Origin: Candidatus Hodarchaeota archaeon
GTDB taxonomy: Archaea; Asgardarchaeota; Heimdallarchaeia; Hodarchaeales; YT1-057
NCBI GenBank assembly: GCA_016839955.1
Contig: JAEOTI010000735.1
Location: forward strand, 1-7,697
Direction of reading: 5' to 3'
Length of the DNA: 7,697 nt
Shown: positions 678 to 6,139 of the stretch, in pieces
Layout of the letters: each line of letters begins with the position of its first letter
How positions within the stretch are numbered: position 1 is the first letter of the stretch
Translations under genes and position numbers: made by a program
Notes under the pieces: generated by a model
What the model saw: the letters and a program-made list of their open reading frames with translations, nothing else
Database searches by the model: none
What the model was told of the DNA's origin: nothing

Positions 678-1112
678 TTATACTACCAAAATGGGTTTAT
701 TCAAATAAGGTAACAATTTCCCCTTATAGAATATACTTCTTCAAAGAGGTTGATATTAGTGGTTTATCGTGTCATTGGGTGTCAGTCATTCATAGAAACA
801 GCAATAGATAGAGTTTATGGTTCATATAGATCATTTCGAGTATATAAGGACTATAAAAGATTTAAAAGGACTATTTATACTATATAAATGAAGTGGGGAA
901 GTAATATAGATGTTATTCCTAATGTATGTCTTTTTTATTTTACTCACTTGATTCAAAATCCGTTACTTTAACTCTATTCATTATAAATAATTCTCTATGT
1001 TTAGTAATGCATACAACGATAATCATATGGAAATCTGAAAGTAGTGCATGCACCAAACCCCATGCACATAGAAGTCTTCCCATATACACGGGGGCAAAAT
1101 TCCCTTATCTTG
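678..1112. other. Gene-poor stretch, 435 bp
   Basis: No convincing gene was found. It holds an AT-rich block with a 9-bp direct repeat (846-874), several TATA-like runs (841-888), a palindromic cluster (1044-1067), and weak short frames. A GTG frame on plus at 759-887 (42 codons, very basic) has AGAGG nine bases upstream, but its K/R/Y-rich end is simply the translation of the AT-rich repeats. A plus frame at 926-1150 runs into the 3' end of the minus gene and looks spurious. On the minus strand, 1111-1001 reads as a cysteine-containing fragment (see findings). Confidence 0.5.
846..874. repeat. 9-bp direct repeat AAGGACTAT, 20-bp period
   Basis: AAGGACTAT occurs at 846-854 and again at 866-874, a start-to-start distance of 20 bp, or about two turns of the helix. 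The repeats sit in an AT-rich tract with TATATAA at 841-847 and TATATAAAT at 881-889. The spacing would place two copies of a protein on the same DNA face, so this could be a regulatory site. No clear gene starts directly downstream, and the repeat is short enough to be chance. Confidence 0.3.
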
Positions 1113-2156
1113 TTAATAAAGGAATTGAAAAGCTTCATCTATCTTTTTAATTAGATATGTAGCTCTTTGCAGTGGAATTTCAGGTTGATCATTATCTTTT
1201 TTGACTGTTACTCTCAAATCTCTTAAGGTTTTATCTAATTTTTTGATATCCTCTGGAAAATCACGCACAAGTTCTGTAAAGTCAAAAACATCTTTCAGGG
1301 TTGGAAATTCTTCTTCCGACCATTCTTTTATTGCACTTTCAGCCAAAACTTTCAAAAAATCATATTCTCCCTTTCTCATCCTCAGGAGAATTATTAACAA
1401 TCTCTTTTTTTCCAAAAGAGATAGTTCGTTCCAAGACTCTGCTTTTAATTCTTTTATAATTGGCAAGAGCTCCTTCCATTTAATTGCAAGAAAAGAAACT
1501 CTTTCAAAATTTCGGAAGGATAGTATATCCAAGCAAGTACTTCGTAGATCTGGTTCTCTAATCCAATTATTTATCATTTCAAGAATCTTAAAAAGGATTT
1601 CAATTCTTTCATCACTTATTGGAGGTTCTAGAGCCATATGGATATGATGTCTAAAGTTCCCAAGTATCTCTTGTCTTTCTAATGGATCTTCTCTATTTTC
1701 CATAAGTTCTAATTGTCTATTTAAGTAGTAAATAGACGGACTTTTTCTTAGATCCTCGTAATCAGTTTTTGGTTCATATTTTACTCTGAATAAATCTCCA
1801 ACCTTTACTTTTTCAGGTGTAAATTCTAAAATCTCTTCTTCACTTTCAGGTTTTGCTATTTCTGCATGTGTATAAAAAGTAAATGGATCTCGTGAAAGAC
1901 TTTCTAAAAGGGGAGATGATCTTATTACCTCGCTTCGAGCAATAGATAATTTATCTTGGACACTTGTTACTGTAGTAGTCGCTTTTACTAGTTCAAGTGG
2001 TTCAATTTCTTCTCCAATATCATTTGTAATCATAGGCCCTTCTGTATAAATAATAAGTTTCATTCCTTGTTTTATGCCATCTTTATTTCCTTTATCAATT
2101 ACTATAGTTGATGTATTTAGTATTTTGATTATTTTTCCTTTGATTGTCTGTACCAT
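1113..2156 (-). CDS. Protein with FlgT-C-like beta domain and helical tail
   Basis: The protein has 347 residues from the ATG at 2156. A TTG two codons further upstream (2162) is in frame, but AGGGAG at 2170-2165 sits eight bases before the ATG and only two before the TTG, so ATG is chosen. Residues ~4-77 carry the pattern of a small beta-barrel domain seen in many bacterial and archaeal proteins and resembling the FlgT C-terminal domain: GKIIKIL, then DKGNKDGIKQGMKL, a GEEIEPLELVKA segment, and VTSVQDKLSIAR. A later strand, KVGDLFRVKYEP (117-129), may close the fold. Residues ~135-347 are almost wholly helical and charged, like a scaffold or partner-binding region. There is no signal peptide, membrane segment or obvious catalytic motif. 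It is the last gene of a minus-strand operon and is coupled to the nuclease gene before it. The domain resemblance is from pattern memory; the function is unknown. Confidence 0.85.
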   Translation of the reverse strand: MVQTIKGKIIKILNTSTIVIDKGNKDGIKQGMKLIIYTEGPMITNDIGEEIEPLELVKATTTVTSVQDKLSIARSEVIRSSPLLESLSRDPFTFYTHAEIAKPESEEEILEFTPEKVKVGDLFRVKYEPKTDYEDLRKSPSIYYLNRQLELMENREDPLERQEILGNFRHHIHMALEPPISDERIEILFKILEMINNWIREPDLRSTCLDILSFRNFERVSFLAIKWKELLPIIKELKAESWNELSLLEKKRLLIILLRMRKGEYDFLKVLAESAIKEWSEEEFPTLKDVFDFTELVRDFPEDIKKLDKTLRDLRVTVKKDNDQPEIPLQRATYLIKKIDEAFQFLY

Positions 2157-2164
2157 TTTCAAAT

Positions 2165-2170
2165 CTCCCT
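2165..2170 (-). promoter_or_regulatory. Ribosome site overlapping the upstream stop codon
   Basis: On the minus strand, TAGGGAG at 2171-2165 contains both the TAG stop of the nuclease gene (2171-2169) and a strong Shine-Dalgarno sequence, AGGGAG. Eight bases then separate it from the ATG at 2156. A ribosome finishing the nuclease would therefore sit on the initiation site of the next gene, which predicts translational coupling. It also decides the downstream start in favour of ATG over the in-frame TTG at 2162. Confidence 0.75.
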
Positions 2171-3284
2171 AAAAAATCTCCATTTTTATATTTTGAATAA
2201 GATCATCCATTGTATCAAGGCATTGGTTCATATTAACTATAGGGGGAGGTTTACAAATTTCTACAAAATAGTTATCTTTGAGGAGCTTTCTATTACTACC
2301 CTCTAATTCTTTTTTCCACCTTGACACAATTTCTTTATCCCATATTTTATCTGAAATTACAGCGTAAGTAACTTTATTTGTTACATTTTCAGCTCTAACT
2401 TTGGCAATTAGATGATCTTCATTATAAAATAAATTGAACTCAATTCCAGGAATAAGATTATGTTGAACTCCAAGATTGAACGTAATGGCTAGTTTATCTT
2501 CGAATCTTGCTAAATAATTAACAGGAATCAGATCAGGATTTTTTGAAATAAGTCTATTAATTCTACTATAATCCTTTAACTTTTTTTGCATGAGATGTAT
2601 TGTATTTTTGCGATATTCAATCCCAATATTCCTTACTAAATATCTGATTGTTTTATTGTTTAATACCTCTTTATTATGCAATAAGCAGAATGCCTCATCA
2701 AAGATCTGCTGTGGCCATATCGTGTGAAGGTAAGAAGTTACAAACTCTCTATCAAATCTAGGTATAATTCTGAAATGGTTCAAAAATTCCTCCGCGATTT
2801 CACGTTGATTGTCTAGTGTTATATTTCTAGGTGATAGCCTCTTTGAAGAGGTAATTATTCTTTCAATTGCCAAAATTGACTTTTCAATATTAGCACCTTT
2901 TTGTTTTGAAAAGGTCTCTGCGACATTTCTTTGAATGTCTCCCTCTAAAAATAAGAGATATTTTATATTACCTGTATTTTGCCTTTTTCTCATTCCAATA
3001 AAATCTAAAATCAATTGTATAATTCCATCTTGAACTGTACTGATAGTCCAACAATTTTGATTTACGTCCCTACTTTTTACCTGAATTCTTTCTTCAAAGG
3101 TTGAATATCGCAGAGAAAAATCAATATCACCTGTTGAAGGAGGATGCATTCTTAATTCGTCTGGAAGTCTATTCTGATTATTACACTTCATTATAAGATA
3201 GAAAAGCGCAAATATTTTTTCATTATAACATGAAGTAACATTTAAATCCTCTTGTAAGTCTTTTGAAAAGGGTTCATGCTCCAA
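2169..3284 (-). CDS. Cap4/DUF4297-like dsDNA nuclease-domain protein
   Basis: The protein has 371 residues. The start is TTG at 3284, supported by AAGGAG at 3300-3295 ten bases upstream; the next in-frame ATG is 32 codons further in and would delete the first helix of the fold. Seen: a helix YNEKIFALFYLI (20-31), GDIDF (52-56), EERIQVKSRD (64-73), then WTISTVQDGIIQLI (79-92) and a strand YLLFLEG (109-115). The order helix, D-x-D, then Q-x-K with D53/D55, Q68 and K70 is the active-site signature of the PD-(D/E)XK dsDNA nuclease domain called DUF4297 or Cap4, known in CBASS and Avs immune effectors. Residues ~130-255 are helical. Residues ~262-345 alternate strands and look like a separate C-terminal domain that I do not recognise; it is not obviously SAVED. 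The gene is followed by the coupled 347-residue protein and preceded by a small zinc-finger ORF. The nuclease assignment is fairly likely; the immune role is inference. Confidence 0.85.
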   Translation of the reverse strand: MEHEPFSKDLQEDLNVTSCYNEKIFALFYLIMKCNNQNRLPDELRMHPPSTGDIDFSLRYSTFEERIQVKSRDVNQNCWTISTVQDGIIQLILDFIGMRKRQNTGNIKYLLFLEGDIQRNVAETFSKQKGANIEKSILAIERIITSSKRLSPRNITLDNQREIAEEFLNHFRIIPRFDREFVTSYLHTIWPQQIFDEAFCLLHNKEVLNNKTIRYLVRNIGIEYRKNTIHLMQKKLKDYSRINRLISKNPDLIPVNYLARFEDKLAITFNLGVQHNLIPGIEFNLFYNEDHLIAKVRAENVTNKVTYAVISDKIWDKEIVSRWKKELEGSNRKLLKDNYFVEICKPPPIVNMNQCLDTMDDLIQNIKMEIF

Positions 3285-3294
3285 AAAATTCGGT

Positions 3295-3300
3295 CTCCTT
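3295..3300 (-). promoter_or_regulatory. Ribosome site AAGGAG for the TTG-started nuclease gene
   Basis: AAGGAG on the minus strand lies ten bases before the TTG at 3284, and no in-frame ATG exists nearby. The first ATG downstream (3277) is in another frame. This site is the reason for accepting a non-ATG start. Confidence 0.65.
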
Positions 3301-3373
3301 CTTTATACATATTGTTAAGTCAATAGAAACCTATCATAAGGAATTTTGATGTGAGATAATAAAACATTGTAAA

Positions 3374-3526
3374 TCAAGAAATCGATCCTAGATAATTCAA
3401 TGAAATTATTGCACATTGATCACAAAGATAACGATCCCTCCAAGTGCTTGGTTTAATAGGAAAGCGACTATAGAGTTTTGCATCAGAGTTATTACATAAT
3501 TCACAGTTATAGGTCAATAATTTCAC
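3374..3526 (-). CDS. 50-residue two-CxxC zinc-finger protein
   Basis: This small minus-strand ORF runs from GTG at 3526 to TGA at 3376-3374. It carries two CxxC pairs, CELC (residues 8-11) and CDQC (35-38), separated by 23 residues with a basic and aromatic middle (YSRFPIKPSTWRDRY). Four cysteines in this spacing are typical of a zinc ribbon or treble-clef finger that binds one zinc ion, often in nucleic-acid-binding or adaptor proteins. An in-frame TAG lies five codons upstream, so GTG is the first usable start. No Shine-Dalgarno is present, but a TATAG box about 25 bp upstream fits a leaderless archaeal transcript. It ends 89 bp before the nuclease gene on the same strand and may be the first gene of that operon. 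I do not recognise the family. Confidence 0.6.
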   Translation of the reverse strand: MKLLTYNCELCNNSDAKLYSRFPIKPSTWRDRYLCDQCAIISLNYLGSIS

Positions 3527-3547
3527 AATAGAGGAGTTCTAAGAAAA

Positions 3548-3555
3548 CTATACAT
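3548..3555 (-). promoter_or_regulatory. TATA-like box for the zinc-finger gene
   Basis: TGTATAG on the minus strand is centred about 25 bp before the GTG at 3526, the spacing expected of an archaeal TATA box for a transcript that begins at the start codon. A T-rich run precedes it. This is positional inference only. Confidence 0.35.
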
Positions 3556-3729
3556 TGAGATTGGAAGTAAAAAAAATATTAAGATGAAAACTTACCAGAT
3601 TTCTGATTCATACTCGGTTATACTCCCTCTCATTTATTTAATTATATCTATTCCGACCTAAATCATTCTCACGAGGGACATGAGATGTATCCAAAAATTT
3701 TTATCTAAAGTGAGTGTCTGGATTGTTTG

Positions 3730-4178
3730 ATGAAGGAAAGGAAACAATTAATCCAAGACATCTCTATACAAATCAGGGAAGCAAAGAAGAACAATAATTG
3801 GGACAAGATTAATGCCACACTTGTGTTAAAGCGTCGCAAATGGGTTGGTCAAAACCTTGATCGCGTGAAGCTAGAAGGAACCGATGTAAGAAAGGCGTCT
3901 TTCTCATGGAATATCTCGAACTTGATCCAGTTGAAGTACCAATTGTATATGAAGACGAGAAGAAGATTATTTGGCGGTCATACAACTAATGTCCTGTCCT
4001 AGAAGTGTGTATACAAAAGAACTTCGATACCCGAGAAGTCTGTCGGAAAGGGTGGGAAACATCTGTCCAAGTCTTTCTGGAAGTCATCAATCCTAAACTG
4101 ATATTTTCTCGTAATTACTATAAAATTCGTCCCTTTGCACCTTATTGTGAGAAGCAAATTTCCTTACAAGAGAAATAA
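3730..4178 (+). pseudogene. Broken cysteine-containing protein gene
   Basis: From the ATG at 3730 the frame reads a soluble N-terminus (NNWDKINATLVLKRRKWVG, then LDRVKLEGTDVRKA). At about 3895-3903 protein-like text moves to another frame, as after a one-base deletion, and continues with LMEYLELDPVEVPIVYEDE and KKIIWRSYN. It meets a TAA at 3987-3989, then resumes in frame with CPVLEVC, DTREVCRKGWE, VQVFLEVINPKLIFSRNYY and KIRPFAPYCEKQI, and ends at TAA 4176-4178. The repaired product would be about 149 residues with four cysteines. The CPxLExC...C...RNY..IRP segment resembles archaeal proteins of unknown function that I recall being near the L-2-amino-thiazoline-4-carboxylate hydrolase-like group; that link is weak. 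Without the repair, the first frame stops at 4002 after an unrelated basic tail. Confidence 0.65.
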
Positions 4179-4208
4179 ACACAATTAATTCTTGAGAGTC
4201 ATTCATAA

Positions 4209-4337
4209 TATTCTAGAGAATCGTCCTTTAATAAATCATACACCCGCCAGTCCATTCGTGTATTCAGAGAACTTCCATATGATCTAACAATTCTCCTCGA
4301 AGATCTGTTTAATCCCGAGATTTCTATGAAGGATTAG
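4209..4337 (+). pseudogene. Short open fragment, possible gene remnant
   Basis: A 42-codon frame between a TAA at 4206 and a TAG at 4335 has no proper start but reads like protein: YTRQSIRVFRELPYDLT followed by ILLEDLFNPEISMKD. After the TAG, ten or so further codons (KGIELSTRTYF) stay plausible before more stops. It is in the same frame as the second half of the broken gene at 3730-4178 but is separated by two stops, so it may be a remnant of a second decayed gene. I do not recognise the family. The rest of 4179-4439 shows nothing else except an inverted repeat at 4406-4431. Confidence 0.25.
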
Positions 4338-4405
4338 AAAGGGATAGAACTTAGTACACGGACTTATTTCTTATGATAGTTTTTCCAACAAGTCCTAGAA
4401 CAATC

Positions 4406-4431
4406 AGCCCTGTTACTCCTAAAATAGGGCT
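4406..4431. repeat. Inverted repeat AGCCCT/AGGGCT
   Basis: Perfect 6-bp arms at 4406-4411 and 4426-4431 enclose a 14-base AT-rich loop. The right arm contains AGGG, ten bases before the ATG at 4440, so the hairpin could hide the ribosome site of the small secreted ORF. There is no T-run after it, which argues against a bacterial-type terminator. Confidence 0.3.
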
Positions 4432-4439
4432 ACAATGAA

Positions 4440-4589
4440 ATGAAAAAGCACATTGTCTTGGGTTTACTTTTCTGTACTGCTCTCTTTTGTGCCTTTCAAC
4501 TCAATTTAGCCAACCCCAATTGTGTAAATGCACAAATGGCGAGAAAACATACTCTTAGTGATTATTATAATATTCCGTGTAAAAAATGA
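4440..4589 (+). CDS. 49-residue ORF with a signal peptide
   Basis: The ORF starts at the second of two close ATGs; the first (4435) stops after two codons. MKKHIVLGLLFCTALFCAFQ is a classic N-terminal export signal: two lysines, then a hydrophobic core rich in L, F and C. A plausible cleavage point is after VNA (residue 31). The mature part would be only about 18 residues (QMARKHTLSDYYNIPCKK). AGGG lies ten bases upstream. Such a short tail suggests either a tiny secreted peptide or the 5' end of a decayed secreted or membrane protein gene; the surrounding sequence is full of remnants. No homologue comes to mind. Confidence 0.4.
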   Translation: MKKHIVLGLLFCTALFCAFQLNLANPNCVNAQMARKHTLSDYYNIPCKK

Positions 4590-4801
4590 ATGACACCTCA
4601 TCAAAGAGAAAGTAGGTTGGCCGACAAGTCAAAGAGGAAGCACTCCCATCAAAAGAGATTGATGATTCGATACCAATGATCTATTGGCCCAAAGCATCAT
4701 TGGGGATCATTCTATAATTTTTTGGACTATTTGTTCCAAATATGATTCTTGAGAGCAAACAAATTTTTAAGATTAATGTGGTTAGTAATTGAAAAGATCA
4801 A
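4586..4801 (+). pseudogene. In-frame remnant upstream of the membrane-protein ORF
   Basis: In the same frame as the ORF that opens at 4802, the sequence reads MNDTSSKRK, TAG (4613-4615), a hydrophilic run with VKEEALPSKEIDDS, then IPMIYWPKASLGIIL, TAA (4715-4717), FFGLFVPNMILESKQIF, and TGA (4790-4792). The hydrophobic piece across the TAA (about residues 700-735 of the base scale, 4697-4740) would form one more membrane helix. This suggests that the membrane-protein gene once started further upstream and lost its 5' part through three nonsense changes. It may instead be a separate decayed gene. No frameshift is needed to join the pieces. Confidence 0.4.
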
Positions 4802-4816
4802 TTGGATTTTAGAAAA

Positions 4817-5566
4817 ATGTCATTCATCACTCATATTGTCACGAAAGGGTCTGCTAATGTTGAAAAGTTAGCCTTTGCAGCTTCTGGGGGGGTCTTTCTT
4901 TTGATGTTATCTTTCTTACACACTTTTGATAGTTTTCGACTTGAAAACTTGATCTATAACGGAGATGAACCATATCAAATCAGTTTCCTTTTTTATACTC
5001 TTATGTTCGTCCTTTTAATATACACCTTTGAACCATTTGAGCGGTTATTCCAAGGGTTTGTTGCAAGAAGAGCACGCCATGAGTACCAGTTTTCCTTCGA
5101 AGAACAGGGTAAACAAATAAAATTTGACATTATTCAAGAGGAACTTAATATAATAGATAAAGAATTTACTAATGTAACAAGTAACACCTATGTACTTAGC
5201 GCTATCCTGTTTCTCACTCCAGTTATATTCTTTTTTGGCAAAAATTGGATCCTCACTTACCAATATCTAACTATCATGGTTATTTTACTAATCACGATGG
5301 GATTCTTGTATTGGCGCATTACAAAGATGAAAAATACTCTTTATTTCCATGTAAAGATGGTACTCCATAGTTACTCACAGTTCTATCAAGGTTCTGGTTC
5401 TAATGGGTTAAGTCTTGCCCGTCAATCAGCATGGACAGAACTTCAAGAGCAAATATTAAATGAAAATAAAAGTCTAACATATGAGATTTCAAAAGAACTC
5501 ATGACTTATATGGGAATAGAGATGGAATCAAATTGTAGCAGGGAGAGATTCGATCAATTTTTATGA
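4817..5566 (+). CDS. Multi-pass membrane protein, front part of an interrupted frame
   Basis: The frame is open from 4793. A TTG at 4802 and an ATG at 4817 are the possible starts; ATG is taken because neither has a clear ribosome site. The product is 249 residues with four predicted membrane helices, at about residues 23-38, 54-73, 125-142 and 149-167. Between helices 2 and 3 lies a charged ~50-residue loop containing GFVARRARHEYQF and an amphipathic helix, and after helix 4 a soluble helical tail begins. A TGA at 5564 ends it, but the same frame stays open and protein-like for 190 more codons (to 6139). Most likely this is the front half of one protein of about 440 residues whose gene has been cut by a nonsense mutation. 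The family is not recognised. The lack of a ribosome site and the three upstream in-frame stops also suggest decay. Confidence 0.55.
   Translation: MSFITHIVTKGSANVEKLAFAASGGVFLLMLSFLHTFDSFRLENLIYNGDEPYQISFLFYTLMFVLLIYTFEPFERLFQGFVARRARHEYQFSFEEQGKQIKFDIIQEELNIIDKEFTNVTSNTYVLSAILFLTPVIFFFGKNWILTYQYLTIMVILLITMGFLYWRITKMKNTLYFHVKMVLHSYSQFYQGSGSNGLSLARQSAWTELQEQILNENKSLTYEISKELMTYMGIEMESNCSRERFDQFL
5564..5566 (+). other. In-frame TGA splitting one long reading frame
   Basis: The codon lies between QFL and EDG in a frame that is otherwise open for 249 codons before it and 190 after it. The 41 codons directly after the stop contain no ATG, GTG or TTG, yet read as protein (DPFQWIYYRYTGYRSQYI). A nonsense mutation is the simplest reading; recoding of UGA as selenocysteine is a less likely alternative. 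Confidence 0.55.
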
Positions 5567-5689
5567 GAGGATGGAGCAAAAGACTCTAGATTCTTTCAAA
5601 AATTACTTCGACCTGAAGATCCTTTCCAGTGGATTTACTATCGGTATACAGGATATCGTTCACAATATATTCAAGAAAGAAAGAAGGTA

Positions 5690-6139
5690 GTGTCAAAGAT
5701 CAATCAGATATATGCCGAGATTGTGAAAGTTTGGCCCTCATTCATTTCTCATCTAAAAGAATTCCAAAATAAAATGAGTCATTATTCTAACCACGATTAT
5801 CGGCGCTTTTTATTGGATACTCTACTTTTGGAAATAGCAGCTGAATCTTTCGAGAAAAGACTACAAAAAGGCACATTTACTGAAGAATACCTGAATTCGA
5901 TTAAGAAAGGTACACAAATTGATACCACTCTAAAAATTGCGAAAGTAAAAGAAATGCTAAGTCAGCAAAAAAGGGGACAGATGTGGTTCAATCTTGTGGA
6001 TGATGTTATCAAAATTCGAGACCTTGCTTACAGTCACCATCAGAACCTTAATGAATTAAAAAAATTAAACCAACAGACTCTTCACAACCTTGAGAGTGAT
6101 ATAGAGAAATTAAAAGTCCCTTCTCCAAAGATTAACTAA
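5690..6139 (+). CDS. Helical C-terminal half of the interrupted membrane protein
   Basis: As an independent gene it would start with GTG at 5690, the first possible start codon after the TGA at 5564, and give 149 residues. The ribosome site is poor: AAGG lies only two bases away. The frame extends back without a stop to 5567, and those 41 codons look coding, so this is best read as the continuation of the ORF at 4817-5566. The sequence is soluble and mostly alpha-helical, with charged coiled-coil-like runs (KKLNQQTLHNLESDIEKLK near the end) and no membrane helix, catalytic motif or cysteine. In the restored protein it would form the cytosolic tail behind four membrane helices. It ends 70 bp from the 3' end of the convergent minus gene at 6210. 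Confidence 0.5.
   Translation: MSKINQIYAEIVKVWPSFISHLKEFQNKMSHYSNHDYRRFLLDTLLLEIAAESFEKRLQKGTFTEEYLNSIKKGTQIDTTLKIAKVKEMLSQQKRGQMWFNLVDDVIKIRDLAYSHHQNLNELKKLNQQTLHNLESDIEKLKVPSPKIN

Follow-up and report, generated by a model that had tools for sequence, protein, structure and literature searches.

Across 7,697 nucleotides (nt) of contig JAEOTI010000735.1 from Candidatus Hodarchaeota archaeon, which we call the window, two neighbouring minus-strand genes, gene A (protein P0001) and gene B (P0002), probably, though far from certainly, make up an immune-type module of two genes, in which the effector is swapped and the two products are joined by pairing of related barrels. According to the listing of open reading frames (ORFs), gene A spans positions 2169-3284 (minus strand; 371 amino acids (aa), TTG start) and carries a Cap4-like nuclease candidate followed by a C-terminal barrel domain. 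Gene B (1113-2156, minus strand, same listing; 347 aa from the ATG at 2156) comprises a FlgT_C-like domain and a tail. Both genes are real. Open frames of 371 and 347 codons are unlikely to arise by chance in DNA with 32% GC, and gene B has a tail relative, 89% identical, in another contig. The stop codon of gene A is separated by 12 nt from the ATG of gene B, and a ribosome-binding-site-like hexamer read from the sequence, GGGAGA (2164-2169, minus strand), overlaps that stop. An alternative TTG start would extend gene B to 1113-2162 (349 aa), but the ATG at 2156 is better placed behind the hexamer. Gene A is preceded by a heptamer of the same kind, AAGGAGA (3294-3300, minus strand), a few nt before its TTG start.

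The two proteins are related through their barrels. The C-terminal domain of gene A (residues about 252-371; 2172-2531, minus strand) represents a divergent version of the B domain, and the barrels share ancestry. A profile of A barrels aligned to the B profile with a score of 26.2, with no window sequence included, and none of 60 column shuffles reached this value (maximum 14.0). The P0001 C-terminus alone scored 20.6 against the B profile from which the window B had been removed (0 of 100 shuffles; maximum 16.5), with 50 columns in register. A structural model of this C-terminus (predicted local distance difference test, pLDDT, 67) contains five strands followed by a helix, a strand and a helix. 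A related domain is present in both the effector gene and the adjacent gene, which is the coupling feature of effector-associated domain (EAD) systems. The earlier note on this DNA had singled out residues 262-345 as a possible control part; the region can now be assigned as a relative of the partner's N-terminal domain, and it may act in control.

A census of B loci, in genomes where gene calls were mechanical ORFs, shows that the pair recurs and that its effector half is replaced. Profile A4 matches 9 of 392 archaeal genomes in the phylum of G001, a Haladaptatus genome. Profile A7 matches 5 of 371 genomes in the class of G001; in the classes of G258 and G120, it matches 3 of 58 and 1 of 232, respectively. 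These samples overlap and amount to 11 genomes, of which 10 loci were kept after a weak match with an internal stop (L020) was dropped. At 9 of the 10, the gene directly upstream of B (overlapping it or within about 22 nt) ends in a barrel of the A type, on the evidence of its sequence and of alignment A9; the tenth locus, L062, has B alone. L122 is among the nine, although its B frame is short and interrupted by stops in the matching part; leaving it out gives 8 of 9. The N-termini of these A genes fall into two kinds. Three, all from one class, carry a CAP12-type TIR domain (PF10137; L013, E 6.9e-6; L014, E 3.5e-4; L016, E 7.3e-6), with the 24.7-bit cut-off reached by L013 and L016 only. Six are transmembrane, either by hydropathy (L007, L015, L017, L019) or by eye (L121, L122). 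Across these genomes, the same position is held by a TIR domain in three archaeal loci, transmembrane segments in six and the nuclease candidate in the window. Exchange of nuclease, TIR and membrane domains at one position is typical of abortive-infection effectors, as in CBASS, Pycsar and type III CRISPR.

The recurrent unit consists of two genes, not three. The earlier note had described three minus-strand ORFs as one module. All three are present in the ORF listing and coupled pairs of the A-B kind do recur in unrelated genomes, but the third member, a 50-aa ORF with two CxxC motifs (3374-3526, minus strand), does not travel with it. No same-strand two-CxxC ORF lies within 800 nt upstream of A at any of the seven other archaeal loci tested (two further loci were outside the test), and the ORF has no family above cut-off in the family libraries scanned. 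It is probably not part of the module.

In bacteria outside one actinobacterial clade, B is paired with a short membrane protein at most of the loci read. Eleven further loci from bacteria, phages and plasmids were sampled, and at eight of them the gene directly before B codes for a membrane protein: Nocardiopsis (L004), L067, and plasmids of Glutamicibacter (L057), Psychrobacter (L051) and Megaera (L052), as well as phages of Lacticaseibacillus (L053) and Fusobacterium (L055) and a viral contig (L123; transmembrane by eye). A barrel-like C-terminus was seen by eye in the membrane partners of L051 and L052 and is absent in the other six. At L002, L054 and L056 another gene stands before B. In Poribacteria, profile A7 matches 77 of 84 genomes, mostly in frames of 400-470 aa; the one such frame that was read (L012) is a longer, different kind of protein. 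Short B frames were collected from 16 Poribacteria regions (17 copies; L104-L119), leaving out at least one more (G818), and in 13 of these regions (14 copies) B follows a membrane A gene. The exceptions are L106, with a HEPN gene before B, and L111 and L112, which have no A gene. The first Poribacteria locus, L005, also has a membrane gene before B, as do three actinobacterial genomes, Mycobacterium-like by impression, at loci that look chromosomal (L064-L066). L063 is cut by a contig end.

The B domain itself occupies residues 1-127 of gene B (1776-2156, minus strand) and is found elsewhere, across archaea, bacteria, temperate phages and small plasmids, as a stand-alone protein of roughly 90-190 aa. 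P0002 matches FlgT_C (PF16538) with E 1.9e-5 and 25.4 bits, just below the 27-bit Pfam cut-off, in line with the FlgT_C-like domain that the earlier note had recognised. Among the PHROGs it matches phrog_27728, of unknown function (E 7.1e-8). Gene B is 35% identical over residues 4-126 to a 126-aa protein of a Haladaptatus plasmid (E 1e-6); beyond this protein, the plasmid collection gave no match to gene B at E<=10. A three-sequence B profile retrieved 25 proteins of 91-149 aa at E<=0.001 from a set of 5.8 billion, one of them a query row. Five have a named source (Lacticaseibacillus, three haloarchaea and Methanobacterium). Two relatives, P0027 and P0030, have PF16538 in their precomputed annotation.

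Beyond the B domain, gene B continues into a C-terminal tail (residues 131-347; 1113-1766, minus strand), which appears helical by impression from its sequence. The tail recurs in P0003, a 408-aa protein on a 2295-bp JGI metagenomic contig, where it is 89% identical from residue 131 on but follows a CAP12-type TIR domain instead of a B domain. The sharp boundary and the unrelated N-termini on a near-identical tail point to a recent exchange of the front domain. No other convincing relative of the tail was found beyond P0003 (best E 0.007).

The N-terminus of gene A is the nuclease candidate. P0001 has no match in Pfam (E<=10), NCBIfam (E<=1) or PADLOC (E<=10), and a search of 5.8 billion proteins (E<=0.001) returned no relative except itself. 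Cap4_nuclease (PF14130) gives no match at E<=10, either on the whole protein or on N-terminal pieces; the pieces have two short Pfam matches only (E 0.16 and 0.24), which we took as noise. Comparison was made with individual Cap4_nuclease proteins (L070, L071 and L072, the matches in 3 of 149 actinobacterial genomes). The Smith-Waterman score of the P0001 stretch ERIQVKSRDVNQNCWTI against L070 was equalled or exceeded by 1 of 2000 shuffles, and that of P0001 against L071 alone was reached by 22 of 2000; no similarity to L072 was seen. Against a profile of L070 and L071, P0001 scored 24.9 (hhalign), compared with a maximum of 19.2 for 100 shuffles and of 21.7 for 49 other ORFs. The predicted catalytic segment (residues 53-78; 3051-3128, minus strand) contains D53/D55, Q68-x-K70 and the SRD..Q..W run common to Cap4 nuclease relatives, with residue roles assigned by eye. 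A model of whole P0001 made without relatives (pLDDT 38) is too poor for judging the fold. Its order of a helix (21-34), three strands (43-47, 54-59, 64-69) and a helix (81-97) would, on our own reading of this poor model, be what a PD-(D/E)XK core needs. The Cap4/DUF4297 likeness put forward in the earlier note is thus modestly supported over the catalytic segment and without a Pfam match at E<=10. We regard it as plausible, not proven, and gene A as a putative nuclease.

The same gene might instead be what is left of a known Cap4 system (CBASS or Avs) after loss of the sensor, with an unrelated gene now beside it. The Cap4-like catalytic segment and the decayed look of the flanks would agree with such an origin. 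However, it is the B barrel that the gene A C-terminus resembles, and neither SAVED nor STAND. Both frames are uninterrupted, the genes lie close together with good ribosome sites, and A-B pairing recurs elsewhere, all of which makes a remnant very improbable. The earlier note's observation that a nuclease-like gene and a FlgT_C-like gene occur here without a recognised SAVED or STAND is borne out by the Pfam and PADLOC scans. At E<=10, Pfam finds no SAVED in P0001, whose C-terminus matches the B barrel profile instead, and Pfam and PADLOC find no STAND ATPase or repeat sensor in its 371 aa. There is no CD-NTase gene among the seven window ORFs scanned, the window ending 1.1 kb downstream of B, and no NTPase was recognised in the window, which is a short stretch.

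Pairs of this kind often stand in defence-type neighbourhoods. Adjacency in unrelated genomes and near defence genes, on which the earlier note had made its proposal depend, was found for them. Eco57I-type restriction-modification genes adjoin all three archaeal pairs of TIR-type A and B, which come from one class (3.2e-44, 1.7e-30 and 3e-26); the Eco57I-type gene is directly upstream in L068 and L069, with one gene between in L058. Among the 16 Poribacteria regions, 13 (not L108, L110 or L111) have a type III mod-like gene that begins MPRLTEQEQQEIIRF or nearly so; they are not the same 13 regions as those with a membrane A gene. A res-like gene, whole or partial, is found in 12 of these 13 (not L107). 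Pfam, run on the res-like and mod-like genes of L104 only, gave ResIII (9e-17) and N6_N4_Mtase (9.5e-37). L005 has both mod-like and res-like genes. A HEPN gene adjoins B at L106 (E 1.7e-9), and Abi_2 genes adjoin it in two phages, L054 (1.2e-28) and L002 (8.9e-21). The B gene of L054 is flanked by annotated cI and integrase genes; in L002, L053 and L123, a gene that looks by eye like an integrase comes after B on the same side. Prophages often carry accessory immunity genes at such a position.

Some of these loci have further features. Across L104-L119, a variable slot near res and mod is filled by A-B pairs, HEPN-like genes and ParA-like genes in varied combinations (by eye, except for the HEPN gene of L106), and L114 has two A-B pairs in tandem. 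On the 6.6-kb Glutamicibacter plasmid (L057), a CAP12-type TIR gene (2130-2927, plus strand; 4.8e-37) lies directly upstream of the A-B pair.

The mobile settings also suit a toxin-antitoxin or addiction pair. Here, A, whether nuclease, TIR or membrane protein, would be the toxin and B its dedicated inhibitor, acting via the related barrels and kept for the stability of the element, not for phage sensing. The pair consists of two small, mostly overlapping genes, it is found on small plasmids (L051, L052, L057) and on phages or prophage contigs (L002, L053-L056, L123), and B is often only about 130 aa long without an obvious sensor. But the toxin comes first and the partner second, an order less usual for classical toxin-antitoxin pairs, and the type III mod-like genes in 13 of 16 Poribacteria regions and the Eco57I-type neighbours fit accessory defence better. 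We hold an addiction pair to be possible, if rather unlikely; it is a variant of the immune-type module and not its opposite.

Several observations weigh against the immune-type module itself. In an actinobacterial sample, 44 of 396 genomes match, of which 38 score alike and seem to represent one kind of locus. Of these 38, 14 were read (L021-L030, L036, L040, L044, L049), and not one has an effector-like upstream gene; a rhomboid-like gene follows the conserved stand-alone B in eight of the 14 (by eye; the others show shadow frames or nothing printed). In this clade B occurs without A, and so it must also have roles apart from the pair. In its nuclease version, the pair was found in no locus but the window, so that selection on the nuclease active site is not demonstrable by comparison. 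All TIR loci belong to one class and all Poribacteria regions to one phylum, and neither set is independent. In the window itself, no defence gene was seen.

The conserved, chromosomal look of the actinobacterial-clade copies and of the Mycobacterium-like loci (L064-L066) would suit an envelope or housekeeping pair, in which B is a structural barrel of TsaP/FlgT type working with a membrane protein, with nuclease and TIR versions as infrequent secondary fusions. FlgT and TsaP are envelope proteins of flagella and pili. Membrane partners are indeed the commonest, and in the PDB the 28-row B profile A7 hits two LysM proteins, TsaP (5.2e-9) and one other (1.1e-6), with FlgT a weak hit (0.84). Yet Pfam finds no LysM on P0002, P0005 or P0006, the TIR and nuclease-like partner domains are expected to be cytoplasmic, B is very sparse in archaea (9 of 392, 5 of 371 and 1 of 232 genomes), and its settings include mobile elements and restriction-modification loci. 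We consider an envelope role improbable for the pair. The B domain belongs to the same family as the FlgT/TsaP C-terminal domains (PF16538; PDB 3w1e, 3jc8) or to a close one, but B itself is short and in most cases is coupled to a membrane or effector-like gene.

In the immune-type module, gene A would be the effector, a Cap4-like PD-(D/E)XK nuclease with a C-terminal small beta-barrel, and gene B would supply a related FlgT_C-like barrel and a tail. As the barrel is common to all barrel-type A genes and related to B, contact between barrels is the simplest mechanism. The A and B barrels would pair, and B would restrain or position the nuclease. With or without an added tail, B may keep A inactive until it is triggered, or it may help A to assemble into its active form. 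Upon infection, the tail, or a ligand or protein recognised by the tail or the barrels, might release or cluster the nuclease, and the nuclease would then cut DNA and stop the cell or the invader. The tail of the window gene and of P0003 could be a second, exchangeable sensor or adaptor. More broadly, we see about an even chance that a B barrel commands an exchangeable effector A (Cap4-like nuclease, CAP12-type TIR or membrane protein) via a second, diverged barrel fused to that effector, in an undescribed and widespread system of archaea, bacteria, temperate phages and small plasmids, which would often sit next to or within restriction-modification loci and provide a further layer of defence there.

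The closest known counterpart is provided by EAD systems. In the part of Kaur et al. 2020 (PMC7159879) that describes them, a small domain is common to an effector gene and an adjacent gene, homotypic coupling is proposed, and effectors are exchanged. A and B likewise share a related domain and swap effectors. However, EADs as presented there belong to NTPase-centred multigene systems, whereas the A-B pair has no recognised NTPase and shares a FlgT_C-like barrel; the word 'FlgT' is absent from the main text of PMC7159879. As an accessory cassette of two genes that turns up in defence loci unrelated to one another, the pair also recalls the nuclease-protease pairs that are reported to be acquired by several immune systems (PMC12799240). 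Their domains are different from those of A and B, and at L067 a trypsin-like protease gene (773-1546, plus strand; Trypsin_2 4.2e-7) lies directly upstream of the A-B pair.

Among nuclease systems, gene A resembles the Cap4 proteins of CBASS and the Cap4-nuclease STAND proteins of Avs type in its Cap4-like N-terminal catalytic segment and its modular effector. In these systems, the Cap4 nuclease domain is joined to SAVED (CBASS) or to a STAND sensor (Avs). The A-B pair differs in having no recognised SAVED, STAND or CD-NTase, a B-like barrel at the C-terminus of A and a separate barrel partner. The TIR versions resemble the CAP12/PCTIR effectors (PF10137), with P0003, L013 and L016 above the Pfam cut-off and L014 below it, but here the TIR domain is fused to the window tail (P0003) or to an A barrel. 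Pfam, NCBIfam, PADLOC and PHROGs give no system name to any A or B protein tested, and no description of an A-B module was found in literature titles and abstracts, among the matches listed. The principle of a swappable effector with an adaptor is known; the coupling domain and the two-gene form seem to be new.

In the rest of the window, positions 3527-4800 and 1-1112 are filled mostly by short broken frames with no recognised gene and look decayed. A 254-aa membrane-protein ORF (4802-5566, plus strand) is also open, and the earlier note's description of its three genes as the only well preserved block in the left and middle window was somewhat overstated. After this ORF, a 149-aa frame (5690-6139, plus strand) lies in another frame and is open back to about 5566; positions 4802-6139 are possibly one gene with a frameshift.

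If the immune-type module is correct, it would be a compact effector-swapping defence module, down to two short genes, with a coupling domain that is unnamed in the defence literature searched. The B domain profile would then serve as a handle for finding further effectors beside anonymous short barrel genes in prophages, plasmids and restriction-modification islands. It would also offer a testable idea, namely that a barrel of flagellum and pilus type may serve immunity as an adaptor that pairs with other barrels of its kind.

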